Assembly: GCA_012934845.2 (NCBI GenBank)
Contig: WNNJ02000567.1
Coordinates: 114,455 to 178,454, forward strand
Source of the DNA: Pomphorhynchus laevis
Lineage: Eukaryota > Acanthocephala > Palaeacanthocephala > Echinorhynchida > Pomphorhynchidae
Length of the DNA stretch: 64,000 nt
Direction of reading: 5' to 3'
Part shown: piece after piece, positions 2,016-44,808 of the stretch
Layout of the letters: each line of letters starts with the position of its first letter
Position numbering within the stretch: position 1 is the first letter of the stretch
Notes under the pieces: generated by a model
The model's input: only the letters and a program-made list of their open reading frames with translations
Told to the model about the DNA's origin: nothing
The model's database searches: none
Program-made: the position numbers and the translations under genes

Positions 2016-2221
2016 TTAATAATTTGTTGTTACACCTGCCCTGAGACACACAATGGTGTACTCGTAAATAAATCACTATGTTTTCCTCATGATGAGGCAT
2101 AAACACCAGGCAGCATTATATATATCCTCATCAGATCAAGAAATAGAACCGAATTATTCTCGCAAAATTCAAAGTCGCTACGTATGCGCAGTCATCCTAT
2201 GCATGACGGTAAACTTCAACA

Positions 2222-2263
2222 ACGGTATACGCGTTTCGCTCTAACGGAGCTCATCAGTACCGT
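2222..2263 (-). ncRNA. Type I hammerhead ribozyme, intact core
   Basis: Read on the minus strand from 2263: stem I 5' strand ACGGUA (2263-2258), core CUGAUGA (2257-2251), stem II GCUC (2250-2247), loop CGUUA, stem II GAGC (2241-2238), core GAAA (2237-2234), a minimal stem III CGCG (2233-2230), cleavage dinucleotide UA (2229-2228), and stem I 3' strand UACCGU (2227-2222). Stem I has 6 and stem II 4 Watson-Crick pairs, and all invariant core bases are present. The predicted cut is between 2228 and 2227 after a GUA triplet. The stem III region ACGCGU is self-complementary, which is the situation where type I hammerheads with minimal stem III act best as dimers, as described for Penelope-like and newt-satellite hammerheads. 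Confidence 0.9.
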
Positions 2264-2685
2264 GACTTTAATAATCATCCATAGGCACCTTAACGTACGC
2301 TTAAATAACGTCTAAAGCTCGAAAAACAGAATTACTCTTAATCTGAATCATCAGAGGAAATTTAACATAAGCTCTGTGCATGGCAGTACGTATTGCGGTT
2401 TAACCATGCATCAGGCACTAAATTCCTTTTAATAGAAATGCTGTTTTACAGGGACACTTTAAAGTGTACAAATATATAAAATATAATTTGTTGTTACACC
2501 TGCCCTGGGACACACAATGGTGTACTCGTAAATAAATCACTATGTTTTCCTCATGAAGAGGCATAAACACCAGGCAGCATTCTATATATCCTCATCAGAT
2601 CAAGAAATAGAACCGAATTATTATCGCAATATTCAAAGTCACTACGTATGCCCAGTCATCCTATGTATGACGACAAACTTCAACA

Positions 2686-2727
2686 ACGGTATACGCGTTT
2701 TGCTCTAACAGAGCTCATCAGTACCGT
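2686..2727 (-). ncRNA. Type I hammerhead ribozyme, second copy with one core substitution
   Basis: The same arrangement as the copy at 2222-2263, offset by exactly 464 bp: stem I ACGGUA/UACCGU, core CUGAUGA, stem II GCUC/GAGC with loop UGUUA, then AAAA in place of GAAA (minus-strand base at 2701), then the same stem III and UA. The G-to-A change hits the first base of the GAAA box (G12), which is catalytically essential in known hammerheads, so this copy is predicted inactive or very slow. The loop change is neutral for pairing. Confidence 0.85.
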
Positions 2728-2787
2728 GACTTTAATAATCATCCATAGGCACCTTAACACACGCTTAAACAACGTCTAAAGATCAAA

Positions 2788-3317
2788 TAGTTGCTAGTTC
2801 ACACAGGGTGACTTTCGCATTGAAAATCAGCTACATAATCCTTCCTTCATGATATCCAATTCCATACACCCTGACTACCAACGGCACCATTGCCACAGCC
2901 GTTTTCGTTTCGCCCGTTTTTTTCCGCATGTTGGTAGCCCCTGGCTCCTCAGAAGGCTGACTGCCAACTCTTCGCCTTTTAAAATTTGACTTATCCGAGA
3001 TTCGAGCTGTCGCTCTCCTTACTTGGCTTGTGCTCTTGACTGCTAGGCTACGAATCCAGGATTACCAGATTTCACACAGTATATGAAACCTTCCATCATG
3101 ATCTCCAGAAACTACATTGTCCGAGATGCTCTCTGACATGCTTATTATAGATTGTTTCGTACGGGATCATGAAGATCGATTGAAATCGGGACTGGTGATC
3201 CTTTGATGGATGCTTATTTATGTATTGAATAGTTGCTAGGTCACACAAGGTGACTTACGCATTGAAAACCAGCTACAGAATCCTTCCTTCATGATGTCCA
3301 ATTTCATACACCCTTAT
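2788..3317. repeat. Family C dispersed repeat, tandem copy (about 441-bp unit)
   Basis: A block starting ATAGTTGCTAG and running about 88 bp recurs at 2788 and 3229 (441 bp apart), with GC-richer sequence between. The same sequence is present in opposite orientation at 49819-50590, again as a tandem with about 444-bp spacing. The unit includes a conserved short hairpin (CGATT/AATCG) next to GGGACTGG. I found no credible ribozyme core or ORF in it. Confidence 0.7.
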
Positions 3318-4969
3318 ATATAAGAAACTATTTTGCTCCTTAAATTACTTTGGTCTGTGCCTTGATAAAAAATATTCACTCCCTTTGCAACATTAGCTTA
3401 TTTTATATGTTCCTTATTCTTGTAAATGGTCAAGATTCTTAGCTTCAACACGTTATTAGACTTTAATGGTATTCAATTATTTCATTTTAATGTTTAATAA
3501 TAAATTTCGTTTTTTAATTTTATTGCCATATTTATCGTATAAAATAGTTTGCAATGTTTTAAAGACGTTTTAAATAATTAACTTTGATTAAAATTGGGTT
3601 TTTAAGCATTTTAAAATGAAAGTTATAATGTTTAAGAATACAAAAATCACGTAAAACGAGGACAGTTTAGAAAGTTTTAACAATAGCTCACAGATTATAT
3701 TCTGTAATGGTACCGGCATATCGCCCAAGAATCATCTGTCTTACTCTTCGTTATTCTAAGAATAACGAAGAGTAAGACATATTTGGTTCATTAAGTGAAA
3801 TGTTAATTAAGATTTATATCAATATTTAAATTAGCATAGACCTATTAATAAGAAAATTTGTATCTATCCAACCAAATATTACAATGTAGACTGATTAAAC
3901 CAGAAAATCGTTTTATAGCTGCCCGGTTATATCAATATTTCAAACTTTTTCTTAGACTTGATACGTCATTGAGGTTAAACAAGCAACATCATAATGTCCT
4001 GGCCTGTTCTAAAAATTATTTATTTGATTTAGGATAATACATTATACTATAAATATATAAAATATATATAAATATAATATATATAAATATATAAAATATA
4101 ATATAAATATACTATAAATATATTACTCAATATATTAAGTAATATATTACTTTAATATTGGTACTACAAAAGATCAAATCCAATGAATATGCCCCACAAT
4201 ATCATTTAGTCGAACAACTATTATTCAGTATATAATATTAAACTATAATTTCGGTAAAATTTAATTTAATTTAAAAATTTTAATGCCAAATTTAAAATTT
4301 TTCAATCAGAATAATTTGACCAATCAAGATAACTTATAACAGTGGGACTAATGGAAAATATAATATTAAAATATTTTAAGTTCAACCTAAAATACTTTTA
4401 ATGTGCTTAAAATATTAATTTAAAGTGAGCTAGAAGCACTTCAAAGACGATGTGCCAGTCTAGAACTAAAATGCTAACTATATCGAAATGTATACAAATA
4501 ACCTACAATAGTAGAAGCAACTACTATCGTATACTATTATTATTTTATGAATACTATTAGTTATATAGTAATATAATATATATTATAATATAGTAATATA
4601 TAAAATAATATATAATATATAATATTATTAGTTATATAACTAATAGTTATATATATTATTAGTTATAAATTATATAATTATTATTTATTATTATTTTATA
4701 AATACTATTATATTAGTTATTAGTTATTTATATTAGTTATCAATTATTCGATGACAATAAGGGAAAAATTATTTGTCAGACGATACTCATATACTTTACG
4801 CGCAGATATTAATACTACGAATAATTGATATAATAAAGAAACAACTTAGCGAGAATAATTTCAAAGTCTGAACAAAAAAAACAATTTAACGGGATCCGTT
4901 TGAGGATAACCCTAAATATGTAAATTTTATTATTATTAAAAAAATATAAAAAAATTATATTAGTAAGTT
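3318..4969. other. AT-rich intergenic DNA with a 43-base perfect hairpin and TA microsatellites
   Basis: No coding frame is visible. Bases 3737-3779 form a perfect inverted repeat with 21-bp arms and a one-base centre. TATAAATA-type microsatellite tracts occur at about 4020-4130 and 4560-4740. Confidence 0.6.
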
Positions 4970-5358
4970 AAAAATTATATAGTTCCGGATAGTATTCTCA
5001 TCTTATCAAACTAGTGCACTTTATTTGATTTTATCATTTCAATCATTTTAACCTCATTTGGTATTCTAAATTGAATAATCTTATTTTTTAGTAGAGACAG
5101 TGAAATACCAAATTTTATTTAAATATCGAATTTTCTATTATCAGAATAAAATTGTACAATTTATCCTGATGATAATAGCAGTTGGCTATCGAAAATTCGA
5201 TATTTAAATAAAATTTTGTATTTCACTCTCTCTACTAAAAAATAAGATAACATTCAATTTAGAATACCAAATGAGGTTAAAATGATTGAAATGATAAAAT
5301 CAAATAAAGTGCACTAGTTTGATAAGATGAGAATACTATCCGGAACTATATAATTTTT
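4970..5358. repeat. Large foldback element, family D (arms about 180 bp)
   Basis: The sequence from 4970 to about 5150 is repeated almost perfectly inverted to 5358, centred near 5164. Inside, the internal GTAGAGA...GTGAAAT ends are also inverted. On the plus strand near 5167 there is CUGAUGA, then UAAUAGC, a short loop, GCUAUC and GAAA: a hairpin bracketed by hammerhead-like boxes, with an extra U between the first box and the stem. Related copies lie at 5640-5720, 26289-26432 and 26565-26758. No ORF; a MITE-like or foldback insertion is likely. Confidence 0.8.
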
Positions 5359-5477
5359 GACAAACAAATGTTTTACGTTGTATAAGGAACGAACACATGC
5401 TGGTTTATATTTATATTATAAATTGACTTTGTGAATATTGTATTCGTGTCTTTTTTAGATTAAAAAAGACATTATGA

Positions 5478-5530
5478 TTTCGACCACCAAGGCCATTATC
5501 ATAATATAATAATGGCCTTGGTGGTCGAAA
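5478..5530. repeat. Perfect 22-bp-arm hairpin
   Basis: TTTCGACCACCAAGGCCATT begins the left arm at 5478-5499; the exact inverse is at 5509-5530, with a 9-base AT loop. It is GC-richer than its surroundings. It could be a recent snap-back duplication or a small foldback element. Confidence 0.85.
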
Positions 5531-20875: not shown

Positions 20876-20932
20876 GCCAGACGCGAAAGAATGACGAATG
20901 CAGTTTCGTCATCACAATGACTCATCAGTGAC
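20876..20932 (-). ncRNA. Hammerhead ribozyme candidate with strong stem II
   Basis: Minus strand: stem I GUCA (20932-20929), core CUGAUGA (20928-20922), stem II GUCAU, loop UGUG, AUGAC, core GAAA (20907-20904), a 21-nt stem III region starting CUGC and ending GCG, the cleavage triplet GUC (20882-20880), then UGGC (20879-20876). Stem I is four pairs with one wobble, stem II five perfect pairs, stem III C-G, G-C, C-G with one bulged U. All core bases fit. An alternative plus-strand hairpin (ATGACGAA with TTTCGTCAT) overlaps it. The region to 21030 has further inverted repeats (GGATGC/GCATCC; GCGTGAAT/ATTCACGC), so it may be a longer structured element. Confidence 0.5.
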
Positions 20933-40249: not shown

Positions 40250-41790
40250 TTATTTATTATCCATCCATAAAAATTTGCCACTTAAGAGTTTAAATTTATT
40301 CTTTATATTATTGTGTTGATTTATATATTTAAGTATTTTCTGTTTAATTACATTTTTATAGTAACCTAGTTTAAAATATGTATCTATTAAATTATTTAAA
40401 TGATTTTGAAGAAAGCCAATATCATTACATATTGTTGCAATTCTTAAAATTTCATTATTTAATGTATTATATTTTATATTATATGGTATGCATGAATGCT
40501 CATGCAAAAATATGTTTCTTGTAAATTTAAATATGTCATCTTTACGATATAAATTAATAGTAGTTTTAGTTAATGTTAATTTAATGTTCATATCTAGATA
40601 TACACCTTCTTTATCATTAATATTGGTTTTGTTAATAATAAGGCTTTCTGGATAAATGTGCTCACTAATTGAATAAAAATTATTAGAATTAAATACACAT
40701 ATATCATCAATGTATCGAAACATATATTTCATATATTTATATTCTTTAGATTTAGTTTTTACACAGTTATGAACAAATTCATATTCTATAAAGCTTAAAA
40801 ACAAGTCAGCTATAATTGGGATACTATTACCACCCATTGGAACACCTTTTACTTGTCTAAATATAGATGTCCCTACTTTTAAATAATTTTGATTTATCAA
40901 AATATTTAAGGATTCTATTAATTCAATTTTATTCATATATTTATATTTATTTGATGGTTTAATTTTTGTTAGATAGGCGTTATAATTATTATAACATATA
41001 TATGTATATCTTTTTCCGAATATAAGATTAATTAATTTTGCTAGCGCTTCTTTAATATCTACTAAATCTAGATTTGTATAAAGAGTACTAAAATCGTATG
41101 TATTTATATTTTGAAAATTTATTCCTTTTGTGTTCTAAAAATTCTTTTGTGGAATAAATACTGAAATAGTGTTTTATACCAGTATTAATTTCGATTACCT
41201 TGCAATATTTTTTGAAGTGTGCTTTAATTACTTTAAGTATTTTATTTATATAGACAGAAAGTGGTTTTAATGTACGTTTAAACGCACTACATATGAACCT
41301 AGGTTTTATTGGATTTTTATGTAATTTTGGATTCCAATATAATATAGGTATAATTTTATTATCTAATTCAACCGTTATACCATTTTTATCCATTATAGAA
41401 CAGGGACTTGTAATAATTGTTTCAAAACTCAACTCACTCGTTCATATGTTGGATTTACATTTAAATCATTAGAATTAACCTCTTTCATTATTATATCATA
41501 ATTAAGCTTTTTGCATATGAAGACAAAGTTATTACTAGCTTTATCAATAGTTGTTATTATATAGTTATCCTTTAATTTAGTAAGTTCTTTATACATATCT
41601 TTATTAATTTTATCTTTCCTTTTGTAATTGTTTGTTATTTTCATTTTTCACCAATTTTATCAAATATATAATCTTTCCAAATTTTTATCTTAGATATATT
41701 CGAGCTTTCACTATTAATCAGCTTACTAAAGTAATCATTTAAGTTATTATATAACGAATTGTAATTTTTTTGTCGTTGTTATTATTATAC
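40250..41790 (-). pseudogene. Penelope-like element reverse transcriptase, frameshifted, no endonuclease seen
   Basis: The protein reads across three minus frames with shifts near 41645, 41430 and 41130. In order: DYFSKLINSES (about 41720), NYIITTIDKASNNFVFICKK (RT box 1), ILYWNPKLHKNPIKPRFI (box 2, PKLHK-x-P), YDFSTLYTNLDL at about 41100 (the D-F-S-T-L-Y-T-x-L box that marks Penelope-like RTs), VKGVPMGGNSIPIIADLFL, then YMFRYIDDICVF with the catalytic YIDD. The 295-codon final frame is intact to TAA at 40250. The region after the RT thumb is short and I see no GIY-YIG endonuclease motif. The 5' end abuts the 3' end of the CR1-like element. The frame is extremely AT-rich, unlike the CR1 copy. 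Confidence 0.85.
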
Positions 41791-41853: not shown

Positions 41854-43149
41854 TTAGTTATTAAAATAAGGAAATGCAACACGAAACATTGCTTGATCCA
41901 TTCGTAGTCTTCTTTTAAAAGTATTAAGTGAACTGCATCCAACGGTGTCTGCATCAAGGTTGTTCCAAAGCTCAACAATTCTTCTATCAAATTGCATCGC
42001 GCCCAATTTCTGTACCCTGTTTCTTCGAATAGTTAAAGAATGACCGCGAAGAAAATTTGAACCACGTAGTTGATCCCTACTCCGAAGAGGGTGATGAGGA
42101 CGTTGGAATAAATGCCAAACAAGGCAAATATCCATGTACCGACGGGTCCATGTGACGGTCTCAAGTCCTAATGATCTAAGTCTGTCTTCATAAGGCAGCG
42201 ACGCCAACGTTGGTGCTAGCTTTGTTGCCCTGCGAAGTACCCTCTCTGATTTCTTATGTTCATGCACAGTACGTGGGTATACAACCGGAGCTGCATATAA
42301 AAGTCTACTCAATACATGTGCTAAAATCAGAGGCCGAAGAGCAGTCGGATTAACTCGAATAAACGCGCGTCGAATCATACCTATCATTTTATTGGAGTTG
42401 GCACAAGCTTGATCAGTGTGCTTTTTAGTAGATAAATTAGAGGTAACCCATACTCTTAAATCTTTGTAACTATCGACACTTCCTACAATACAACCCTTAT
42501 ATGTGTAACAAGCTGATGTTAGTTCCTTGCGAGCATTACTAATAATACGCATGTGTTTGCATTTCAAAACATTTATCACAAGCTTGTTAGACGCCGCCCA
42601 CAACTCCACATTATCTATGTCAGTTTGCAAATTATCAACATCCTCACATGAATGAATGGGCCGCCATATTTTTAAGTCATCTGCATACAAACATGATCGA
42701 GAGCGAATGCACCCAGGCAAATCGTTAACATAAATGCTGAATAAAAGCGGACCCAAAACTGAACCTTGAGGTACTCCAATATGACATTCTCTAGACACAG
42801 ACAATGACCAATCGACAAGTACTCGAAAGCAACGATCACGAAGAAATTCTCTAATCCAATCAACTATTATGTTTGGGAGTCCAGTATTGACAAGTTTCTG
42901 AAGAAGTAGACCATGATCTACTCTATCAAAAGCTTTAGAAAAGTCGAAGAATATAATGTCTGTATCGGTATAATGTGTCTTATTCGCTGTCCAATCAAGA
43001 TGAGCATCAAGCAAATTTGAAACAGTTGAATAACCCTCCCGAAATCCGTGCTGATTAGGGACTAAAATTTTTCCTACACGAAAAAACTCAACCATGTAGC
43101 GATGCACAAACCTCTCCAACACTCTACAGCAAATGCAGGTAATGCTCAC
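41854..43149 (-). CDS. CR1/jockey-like ORF2, reverse transcriptase domain (intact 431-residue frame)
   Basis: An open frame without stops from 43149 to 41854. RT boxes in order: LVPNQHGFREGYSTVSNLLD (box 2a), IIFFDFSKAFDRVDHGLL (first catalytic Asp), CHIGVPQGSVLGPLLFSIYV, then SCLYADDLKIW with the catalytic ADD, then NKLVINVLKCKHMRI, and the thumb with LLYAAPVVYPR, LASLPYEDRL, LRGHSLTI, ELWNNL and FKRRL. RT copies the element RNA at a nicked chromosomal target. The start of this frame is not the protein start; it continues from the endonuclease and linker upstream through one or more shifts. Clean catalytic residues and higher GC than the neighbours suggest recent insertion. Confidence 0.9.
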   Translation of the reverse strand: MSITCICCRVLERFVHRYMVEFFRVGKILVPNQHGFREGYSTVSNLLDAHLDWTANKTHYTDTDIIFFDFSKAFDRVDHGLLLQKLVNTGLPNIIVDWIREFLRDRCFRVLVDWSLSVSRECHIGVPQGSVLGPLLFSIYVNDLPGCIRSRSCLYADDLKIWRPIHSCEDVDNLQTDIDNVELWAASNKLVINVLKCKHMRIISNARKELTSACYTYKGCIVGSVDSYKDLRVWVTSNLSTKKHTDQACANSNKMIGMIRRAFIRVNPTALRPLILAHVLSRLLYAAPVVYPRTVHEHKKSERVLRRATKLAPTLASLPYEDRLRSLGLETVTWTRRYMDICLVWHLFQRPHHPLRSRDQLRGSNFLRGHSLTIRRNRVQKLGAMQFDRRIVELWNNLDADTVGCSSLNTFKRRLRMDQAMFRVAFPYFNN

Positions 43150-43215
43150 CGGGCTATAATTCTCGACGGAAGAGCGATCTCTCTTCTTGAAGTAGGGAAG
43201 AACAATTGACTGCTT

Positions 43216-43961
43216 TCACACATTAGGAAGAGATCTTTCCAAGATTGACTGGCGAGAAATTGCACAGAGAGGAACGCAAATCGAGCCTGCTAATCTGCGC
43301 AGATAAACAGAAGGTAGTAAGTCACAATCTCTTGAATTATTTGCTTTTAGACGGCGTAATTCGGAATAGACTTTAGCTGGCGTTATCAAATTGTCAAGGT
43401 CCAACTCAAGACACGTGTCAGAGTAAGTGTTCAGCACACTAGATTCCATACAAAAAGTTTCATGTTCATTTGCCGGCTCTACTGAAGTGCAATAGTGTGC
43501 CGCAAACTCTTCAGCTAGGTCATTCGCAGAAATGTCATAGAAGTAGTGACAAATCGAAGAATCAACAGCTCCCTACTTGATAGGTACTGAAAAAGGACCT
43601 TTAAATCGTATTTATACTGGTTAGCTAATGCATTCTCAAATGCATACCGCTTCTTTCTCTTCAATGAATTGAATAAATTTCTTGCCTGTTTAAAAACATC
43701 ATAACTACACTCCCCAACTTTGTAGCGATTGAAGATCAAATTACGAGTCCTCAATGTTGAACGTAACTCAGAATCGAACCAGGGAGAATCTTTTCGACGT
43801 GACCTGCTTCTAAGTGGGGAGAATAAAATAAGCAGCGACTCTAAGGTTCTCTGAAAATAATTCCACGCGCCGTGTACTCCAACAACAGCGGGATCTGGCC
43901 ATGAAGCTGTTGAAAGTATTGACTGAATTGCATCTGTGTTGGTTTTGAAAGCATTAACCAC
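43216..43961 (-). pseudogene. CR1/jockey-like ORF2, linker between endonuclease and RT (frameshifted)
   Basis: Two minus frames (43961-43515 and 43449-43216) carry LFSPLRSRSRRKDSPWFDSE, RTRNLIFNRYKVGECSYDVF and FNSLKRKKRYAFEN, the W-F-x-x-E-L ... R ... Y-x-x-x-R-x-x-F-x-x-x-K-R-x-K-x-x-Y pattern of the linker, then LDNLITPAKVYSELRRLKAN and SRDCDLLPSVYLRRLA, the run-in to RT. Shifts near 43500 and 43190 break the frame. Confidence 0.8.
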
Positions 43962-43968
43962 TTGATTT

Positions 43969-44808
43969 TCACGCGGACCTCGAGTTTTTCTTAAACCTTA
44001 ACCTAATGATCACTACGCAATGATCAGACATACCGTTCGGGGTATCATAACGGATAGCATTGATAATCTCACTGTTCGAAGATAAACATACATCTAATAG
44101 AGATCTACTGTCACTAGCAAAACGAGTGCAATTTTGGACATGCTGAGTTAAACCACAATAGATGATACACTCCATAAGGTCATAGGAAGCATGGCCACAA
44201 GTAGGAAAAGCCGTATACGAATTCCAATCAACCGAAGGCATATTCAAGTCACCAAGTATTAAAACATTGGTGGTACCTTTAGAATAAAGTTCTACTTCCC
44301 CGATCAGTTTATCTGTGGCGGTCAAGGGTGAACGATATACTACCCCTAGAACAAGCGGAGCGGTATGCATGAATTTTACCCGACACCACAAACTTTTGAC
44401 TTTATCAGAAGAAGAAGTGCTAAGAATTGTTACTTTCACATCGTTGCTCACATAAAGAATAACACCTCCACCTCTTCCACTTTTACGATCACTGCGGAAA
44501 ACCAAATAACCAGGGATTGAGACTTCATTATCAACAATATCACCATATAGCTACGATTCTGTGATAGCAAGTAATTTAGGACGAATTAACTGAACTCTAT
44601 ATCTCAGTTCATCTATCTTCGATATAAGACTGCGAACATTACAATGGAGTATTTCACAATGCCCCAACATACCTCTGGGAGTATTCCTATCACCCCTTAC
44701 ACATCCTAATAACCCGGACGCTAAACCATTTAGACTCTGATAGGCAGAGTAGACGAGCCCGTTTCGATTACAGAATGCACGCGAGGCGACATGACTAGTG
44801 GGCTCCAA
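43969..44808 (-). pseudogene. CR1/jockey-like ORF2, AP endonuclease domain (one nonsense codon)
   Basis: LHCNVRSLISKIDELR with the catalytic Asn and KLLAITES with the catalytic Glu, then an in-frame TAG near 44551 where the family has Trp, then RSDRKSGRGGGVILYVSN, VLGVVYRSPL, VLILGDLNMPSVDWNS (catalytic Asp/Asn), SRSLLDVCLSSN and GMSDHCVVII (final Ser-Asp-His). All catalytic residues are kept. The enzyme nicks target DNA to prime reverse transcription. Besides the TAG, a frame change links the domain to the linker. Confidence 0.85.

Follow-up and report, generated by a model that had tools for sequence, protein, structure and literature searches.

Retrozymes of Pomphorhynchus laevis bear insertion marks like those of Penelope-like elements

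The window, by which we mean the whole stretch of 64,000 nucleotides of Pomphorhynchus laevis DNA analyzed here, contains a short tandem array whose identity as a retrozyme is close to certain. Judged by its sequence, it is a metazoan-type non-LTR retrozyme, non-autonomous and non-coding, and belongs to a new family of a known kind. We consider it likely, with good confidence, that retrozymes of this 464-nt family and of a second, 296-nt family were pasted into the genome by the machinery of Penelope-like elements (PLEs), because: (i) the copies have 3' ends at two sites, junctions with TA repeats and arms lying head-to-head, all of which match published insertion marks of PLEs, and (ii) two retrozyme families and a PLE tail of one genome show the same form.

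The features of the window locus are as follows.

2019..2782, minus strand: retrozyme array of 1.65 head-to-tail 464-nt units (repeat comparison)
2228..2691, minus strand: the sole complete 464-nt unit, cleavage site to cleavage site (direct reading)
2222..2263, minus strand: type I hammerhead with full core and near-absent helix III (direct reading, copies, between-family comparison)
2686..2727, minus strand: second hammerhead, G12 to A at 2701, predicted inactive (direct reading)
2019..2031, minus strand: site L, AACAACAAATTAT, where the array itself has its 3' end, at unit position 209 (end comparison)
2536..2548, minus strand: site S, AAAACATAGTGAT, unit position 156, inside the complete unit (end comparison)

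In the ribozyme sense the array runs from 2782, where it is 5' truncated at unit position ~370, to its 3' end at site L (2019). It contains a direct repeat of 300 nt (2019–2318 and 2483–2782; 95% identity) with a spacing of 464; an earlier note on this DNA had the spacing right and gave the copies as 298 bp. The length between the two predicted cleavage sites (2691–2228) agrees with the 464-nt unit described there. Read directly from 2263 to 2222, the hammerhead comprises stem I (ACGGUA/UACCGU, 6 bp), CUGAUGA, stem II (GCUC/GAGC, 4 bp) closed by the loop CGUUA, GAAA, then CGCG, U16.1, A17 and the UACCGU strand. No core base is missing and helix III is replaced by a self-complementary ACGCGU, all as the note had claimed; cleavage is predicted between 2228 (A17) and 2227. 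The second hammerhead (2727–2686) has unchanged stems and one different base in loop II, and base 2701 confirms the A reported for G12. The locus alone would be expected to release its 464-nt unit poorly, because this predicted inactive hammerhead is the one transcribed first. Beyond site L the window locus reads TAATTC, at a place where many other copies have (TA)n. Site S is an alternative 3' end in other copies, and the window locus does not end there.

A covariance-model match, suggested earlier as a check, was not obtained for the window copy at the curated Rfam cut-offs: the window has no gathering-level Rfam match, the 464-nt family lying below the Hammerhead_1 (RF00163) gathering score of 34 bits, and the best hammerhead model for the locus, HH9, reaches 18.4 bits against a cut-off of 52. 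Matches of miRNA type were rejected as hairpins or AT repeats. The loose pattern CTGANGA-N6..20-GAAAC occurs four times in the window, three of them at other places, against 0.37 expected, and none of 100 shuffled windows holds at least four matches. A hammerhead core with a 4-bp stem II and without a clear stem I or cleavage site, CTGATGAGTCATTGTGATGACGAAAC, is found at 20903–20928 on the minus strand and is perhaps another retroelement end. The window also holds near-perfect short palindromes and inverted pairs (1945–2016, 3734–3782, 4978–5350 and 5461–5529), one of which directly adjoins the retrozyme 3' end; similar hairpins are seen where the two arms of head-to-head PLE copies meet (L079, L083). 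Another repeat (AATAGTTGCTAG...), at 2786–2872 and 3228–3314, starts at the retrozyme border and lies near the border in L045 as well.

The assembly containing the window comprises 249.4 Mb in 3,242 contigs. The retrozyme stretch gave 121 matches in the best 39 places scored of 1,427 candidates, and the 38 other array contigs, those with the greatest similarity to the retrozyme piece of the window, were taken for the analysis of ends and units. A 35-base hammerhead pattern with at most 3 mismatches occurs at 1,439 places genome-wide (719 + 720); read backwards as a control, it has no match. The strict core CTGATGA/GAAA/TH is retained in 105 of the 131 hammerhead-spanning copies among the fetched contigs, so that the further copies with conserved cores anticipated by the note are present in number. 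Arrays reach 15 units (C664) with the unit length staying at ~464 nt, and on C487 20 exact hammerheads are listed between 14270 and 26630. Copies diverge from the majority base by 3.9% on average; divergence in the hammerhead is 0.028–0.046 per 20-base bin against a mean of 0.039 over the unit, a level close to that of the other parts and without any sign of purifying selection. The unit has 37.8% GC (91 full units), a whole-unit fold with z of -1.40 and, in one tripled unit, a longest open stretch of 70 aa, which bears out its description as non-coding. Covariation inside the 464-nt family was not above shuffles (one double change; score reached by 127 of 500 shuffles). The 38 further array contigs, together with a second family and compensatory differences between the families, uphold the reading of the locus as a retrozyme-like unit with a type I hammerhead.

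This second family emerged from a search of the genome with Hammerhead_1, in which 62 of the 65 matches listed lie above the cut-off (73 of 40,608 candidates scored; best 42.2 bits); 14 control genomes gave no match to the model. The matches that were read belong to the following family.

Contigs C1798, C2049, C2177 and others; loci L049–L078: second retrozyme family, 296-nt unit (Rfam Hammerhead_1)

Significant similarity between the 296-nt and 464-nt units is confined to ~71% over 80 nt around the ribozyme. Within it, three base pairs differ in both of their bases: stem I has C-G in place of G-C, and stem II has U-A in place of C-G and C-G in place of U-A. We compared 57 of 98 distinct hammerheads (38 of 77 from the 464-nt and 19 of 21 from the 296-nt family) out of 61 drawn (40 at random plus 21), the omission of four (one because of a deletion, two because stem I was truncated, one without need) slightly favoring structure. 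Cells changed on both sides number 55 against 20.4 in shuffles, a value reached by 0 of 500, and paired cells, both-side-changed cells and covariation score all exceed 500 of 500 shuffles; the number of both-side-changed pairs (3 against 3.3 in shuffles) and of pair types (9) is not above shuffles. In essence, the covariation amounts to a single difference that separates two groups. Both families have a short palindrome as helix III, ACGCGU in the 464-nt and ACACGUGU in the 296-nt unit, which suggests that the hammerheads of both may act as dimers. Dimer action has been published as the expectation for axolotl hammerheads (PMC7229834) and suggested for PLE hammerheads (PMC7761336).

The 3' ends of both families concentrate at two sites. 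In the 464-nt family 34 of 52 fall at S (unit positions 155–160) or L (209–222), which are 53 nt apart, and 18 at neither; in the 296-nt family 21 of 27 fall at positions ~106–120 and 168–175, and 6 at neither. In these counts one 3' end in each family's list is unreal, an artefact of locus L045, whose "296" arm (1 of 28) is a cross-match between two hammerheads and splits one L045 array, and the C1461 end is counted as L with another alignment reaching further. The 5' ends are scattered over the unit. Several appear to lie at the cleavage site, position 1; these were rejected, being mostly alignment artefacts or bases common to the flank.

Genome-wide, exact junctions between unit and TA repeat number 71 at L and 97 at S, and 2 at a control, a third TA-rich patch in the unit with the sequence ATATATA; when one mismatch is allowed, the counts are 117 (including some within arrays that only lost T), 161 and 3. 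The 38 arrays, being closest to the window piece, may favor end L, a bias from which the genome-wide counts are free. The abundance of L and S junctions against two at the ATATATA patch argues that the RNA determines where priming starts; on the same counts, the idea that any AU-rich patch would serve was rejected. A TA run of at least 8 within the 20 nt beyond the end is present at 34 of 76 3' ends, against 8 of 43 non-twin 5' ends (Fisher P 0.005; L045 artefacts excluded) and 203 of 8,894 background windows; non-twin 5' flanks are mostly without TA runs. A common hairpin between the start sites was not supported, as the three tails fold no better than shuffles.

Two further features of the window bear on the target.

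40250..41134, minus strand: reverse-transcriptase ORF piece (RVT_1 below its cut-off: 23.0 against 29.6 bits, E 7e-5)
40995..41009, plus strand: CATATATATGTATAT, uninterrupted counterpart of the L012 insertion place (flank comparison)

From its motifs we take the ORF piece to be of the Penelope-like class. Relatives of it elsewhere in the genome hold retrozyme insertions, and one of these, L012, is clean on both sides and lies in a relative ~85% alike to the window stretch; among the flank matches on two sides, L012 alone abuts on both. L031 and C518 also lie in this ORF region, C518 close to the tract of L012, but both are separated from it by intervening sequence; the remaining two-sided matches were left out of account. 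Since the uninterrupted relative has a short TA tract only, the long TA repeat at the filled L012 junction probably arose with or after the insertion. The TA runs at 3' ends and this one clean empty counterpart point to an AT-rich target; because the targets are TA-rich, a target duplication is indistinguishable from a tail. In L012 and C308 the 464-nt and 296-nt families adjoin, perhaps as nested insertions.

We also analyzed how neighboring arms face each other. Among 23 neighbors less than 100 bp apart, 18 are head-to-head, one is tail-to-tail and four run in the same direction, one of these four being the L045 artefact; the excess of head-to-head over tail-to-tail has a P of 8e-5. For arms up to 1,200 bp apart the counts are 18, 3 and 7, respectively. 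The two arms start at differing unit positions in all but one pair, so mirror-image errors of assembly do not explain them. Of the 7 pairs whose outer ends both fall at L or S, 6 combine an L arm with an S arm (P 0.06 alone); in the remaining 11 at least one end lies elsewhere or at a contig edge. Exact-junction pairs within 4 kb, counted genome-wide, point outward in six cases (five of them L/S), inward in three and in the same direction in one. The arms of C361 come from different families, 464 and 296, and face head-to-head, and in C1798 each of the 8 full units finds its nearest relative beyond its own arm in the opposite arm.

The same form recurs in a repeat beside the 296-nt arrays. It begins with CUGAUGA-stem-GAAAC and follows an ORF with the words AIYLAQC and YVGQTGRG, which we take to be typical of the GIY-YIG endonuclease; it has two 3' ends in TA-rich DNA, one after TTTTACAA and one ~52–55 nt on, after GATAAC. 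Given these words and this form, the repeat appears to be the 3' end of a PLE. GIY-YIG pieces beside it score 16.1 and 14.1 bits, below the Pfam cut-off of 22.6; in the genome, 75 matches to the domain are listed (150 of 795 candidates scored), and it also matches in 12 of 14 control genomes. Among the 55 PLE-tail matches listed (40 of 76 candidates scored), there are 16 head-to-head pairs and no other adjacency occurs. Both ends were classified for 13 of these pairs, and each of the 13 joins a long arm to a short one, "long" meaning that the arm reaches the end of the 113-nt query and not a seen end, and some pairs may be one locus on two contigs (L079/L081, 99% alike over 310 nt). At the locus C261, L051 two PLE-tail copies lie tail-to-tail. 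The PLE tail and the 296-nt family ends share a 24-nt match (E 0.002) in a register that fits the 3' site (random-site P 0.05), a suggestive likeness at the level of sequence; no such likeness to the 464-nt family ends was found (P 0.61).

We propose the following course of events. The hammerheads, probably acting as dimers in view of the near absence of helix III, would cut multimeric retrozyme transcripts, and the cut units may be ligated into circles. The PLE protein, with its reverse transcriptase and GIY-YIG endonuclease, would take the circle or the uncut multimer, cut an AT-rich DNA target and begin reverse transcription within the RNA, at either of two sites ~53 nt apart. Priming would often proceed from both broken target strands, giving two head-to-head arms; copying beyond the unit boundary would give tandem units, and copying may stop anywhere, leaving scattered 5' ends. 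It seems probable to us that the PLE protein copies retrozyme RNA in trans, with the PLE tail and head-to-head arms as the mark left behind, and, as part of this reading, that such copying at times joins two different retrozyme RNAs at one break, as in C361.

A 3' end inside the unit, combined with more than one unit per insertion, means that the template has to be a circle or an uncut multimer. In 32 loci with at least two full units (units grouped by locus; L035 mixes insertions), the average distance among the units of a locus is smaller than that to the nearest unit elsewhere in 12, including L011, L024, L033 and C1351; two are equal, and in 18 the units are on average closer to the nearest unit elsewhere. 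These 18 mixed loci do not fit one circle copied round and round. Overall the unit distance is only slightly lower within than between loci, 0.061 and 0.068 (reached by 23 of 500 permutations), and in the 296-nt family 0.036 and 0.051 (reached by 0 of 500). The third and second units from the 3' end have common nearest relatives in L027 and L031. The arrays closer to units elsewhere include L020, L027, C2049 and C2177, for which heteromeric templates or template jumps are candidate readings.

The mixed arrays favor uncut multimers or template jumps for part of the copies, and a variant of PLE mobilization with the same mover, in which the template is a linear uncut multimer and not a circle, is a serious possibility, if somewhat short of an even one. 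The PLE Poseidon protein used uncut RNA in vitro, and its insertion was unchanged by hammerhead mutants (PMC11167929); the 18 mixed loci of 32 and the common nearest relatives in L027 and L031 agree with a multimer. The 12 loci whose units are closest to each other are what one circle would give, and published retrozymes exist as both linear and circular RNA (PMC7229834), which speaks for the circle.

The window holds another candidate mover.

41854–44550, minus strand: jockey-like LINE, endonuclease and reverse transcriptase pieces (domain search)

Twin priming and 5' truncation are known for LINEs, and the non-LTR retrozyme might instead be moved by a LINE such as this one, through ordinary twin priming at TA-rich targets. 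The element has 765 candidate places in the genome, the best 40 of which scored 98–100% identical over 497 bases. Among these 40 scored copies there was no head-to-head pair, a control that is imperfect because the query was taken from the 3' part of the ORF instead of the actual 3' end of the element. In addition, a pair of adjacent internal 3' ends is described as a feature unique to PLEs (PMC11167929) and is also found on the PLE tail of the same genome. We therefore regard a LINE mover as unlikely. Two side observations concern coding pieces: an ORF with a PHD finger (E 2e-9) at 311–1009 of the window, minus strand, is perhaps the first ORF of a LINE, and COX1-like pieces with stops on contigs C2414, C2953, C235 and others are perhaps mitochondrial DNA in the nuclear genome.

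The 464-nt unit could instead be a tandem pseudo-LTR, that is, the terminal unit of a PLE without its coding part, and not an independent retrozyme. The hammerhead lies upstream of the internal start sites in PLE pseudo-LTRs (PMC11167929), the same order as here, and a review proposes that retrozymes are reduced PLEs (PMC11722881). Against this stand the unit length of ~464 nt kept in arrays of up to 15 units, the longest open stretch of 70 aa and the lack of any PLE ORF joined to the 464-nt unit among the fetched loci. We consider a pseudo-LTR improbable; the two readings overlap in their odds, because a PLE mover is common to both. That the arrays are satellite DNA, spread by unequal exchange and DNA circles with the hammerhead as a passenger and accidental ends, is very improbable: long arrays (C664, C487) and the mixed units of many arrays would suit it, but it is opposed by the concentration of 168 exact junctions at two positions when a comparable patch has 2, by the recurrence of this form in a PLE and in a second family that shares only the ribozyme region, and by the clean empty counterpart of L012.

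Mobilization by PLE machinery agrees with what is described for PLEs themselves. The purified anole PLE protein starts reverse transcription at two adjacent sites within its RNA and cuts AT-rich DNA, with both strands cut and extended, and the "tail" is the stretch between the two start sites (PMC11167929). In rotifer PLEs the tail is optional on one of the inverted copies, the commonest inverted form is head-to-head, and simple AT-rich targets are preferred (PMC3846280). As in the present families, PLE hammerheads are of type I, with little helix III, and lie upstream of the internal start sites, and PLEs share the two adjacent 3' ends, AT-rich targets and tandem copies (PMC11167929). Unlike those PLEs, the retrozyme unit has no ORF, and the tail here is 51–62 nt long, compared with 30–40 (PMC11167929). 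Core and stem I are complete in the 464-nt unit; the PLE tail of the same genome retains only CUGAUGA-stem-GAAAC.

With metazoan non-LTR retrozymes the families share the type I hammerhead, short tandem non-coding units, low GC, many copies and PLE-like sequences within the same genome (PMC7229834). The 464-nt unit is longer than the 170–400 nt given in the abstract of PMC7229834 and 14 bp above the range of 150–450 also quoted there; the sister family measures 296 bp. Helix III is almost absent here, as in the salamander form, and the satellite hammerheads of axolotl and newt likewise have a very short palindromic helix III and expected dimer action, in units of 330–350 nt against 464 here (PMC7229834). 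The available text of PMC7229834 describes no such insertion marks for the axolotl and newt satellites, and for retrozymes it mentions neither a pair of fixed 3' ends inside the unit nor TA junctions nor arms lying head-to-head; retrozyme target-site duplications, when present, exceed 4 bp (PMC7229834).

In metazoan non-LTR retrozymes no conserved motif reveals an autonomous partner (PMC7761336). Their priming has been left open, with PLEs named as a strong candidate (PMC7229834), a view that two later texts repeat, and reliance on PLEs, a SINE-like status or descent from reduced PLEs has been proposed (PMC7229834, PMC8969392, PMC11722881). The main text of PMC11167929 does not mention retrozymes, and in the open-access literature we found the mobilization of retrozymes by PLEs as a proposal only. 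The proposal itself is thus already in print, and the new part would be the shared insertion mark. Taken together, the 3' ends at two sites, the junctions with TA repeats, the head-to-head arms and the tail present on one arm form a mark that points to the autonomous partner, and this mark bears on the open question of which machinery moves animal retrozymes. It also puts the relation between retrozymes and PLEs within reach of the in vitro system described in PMC11167929.
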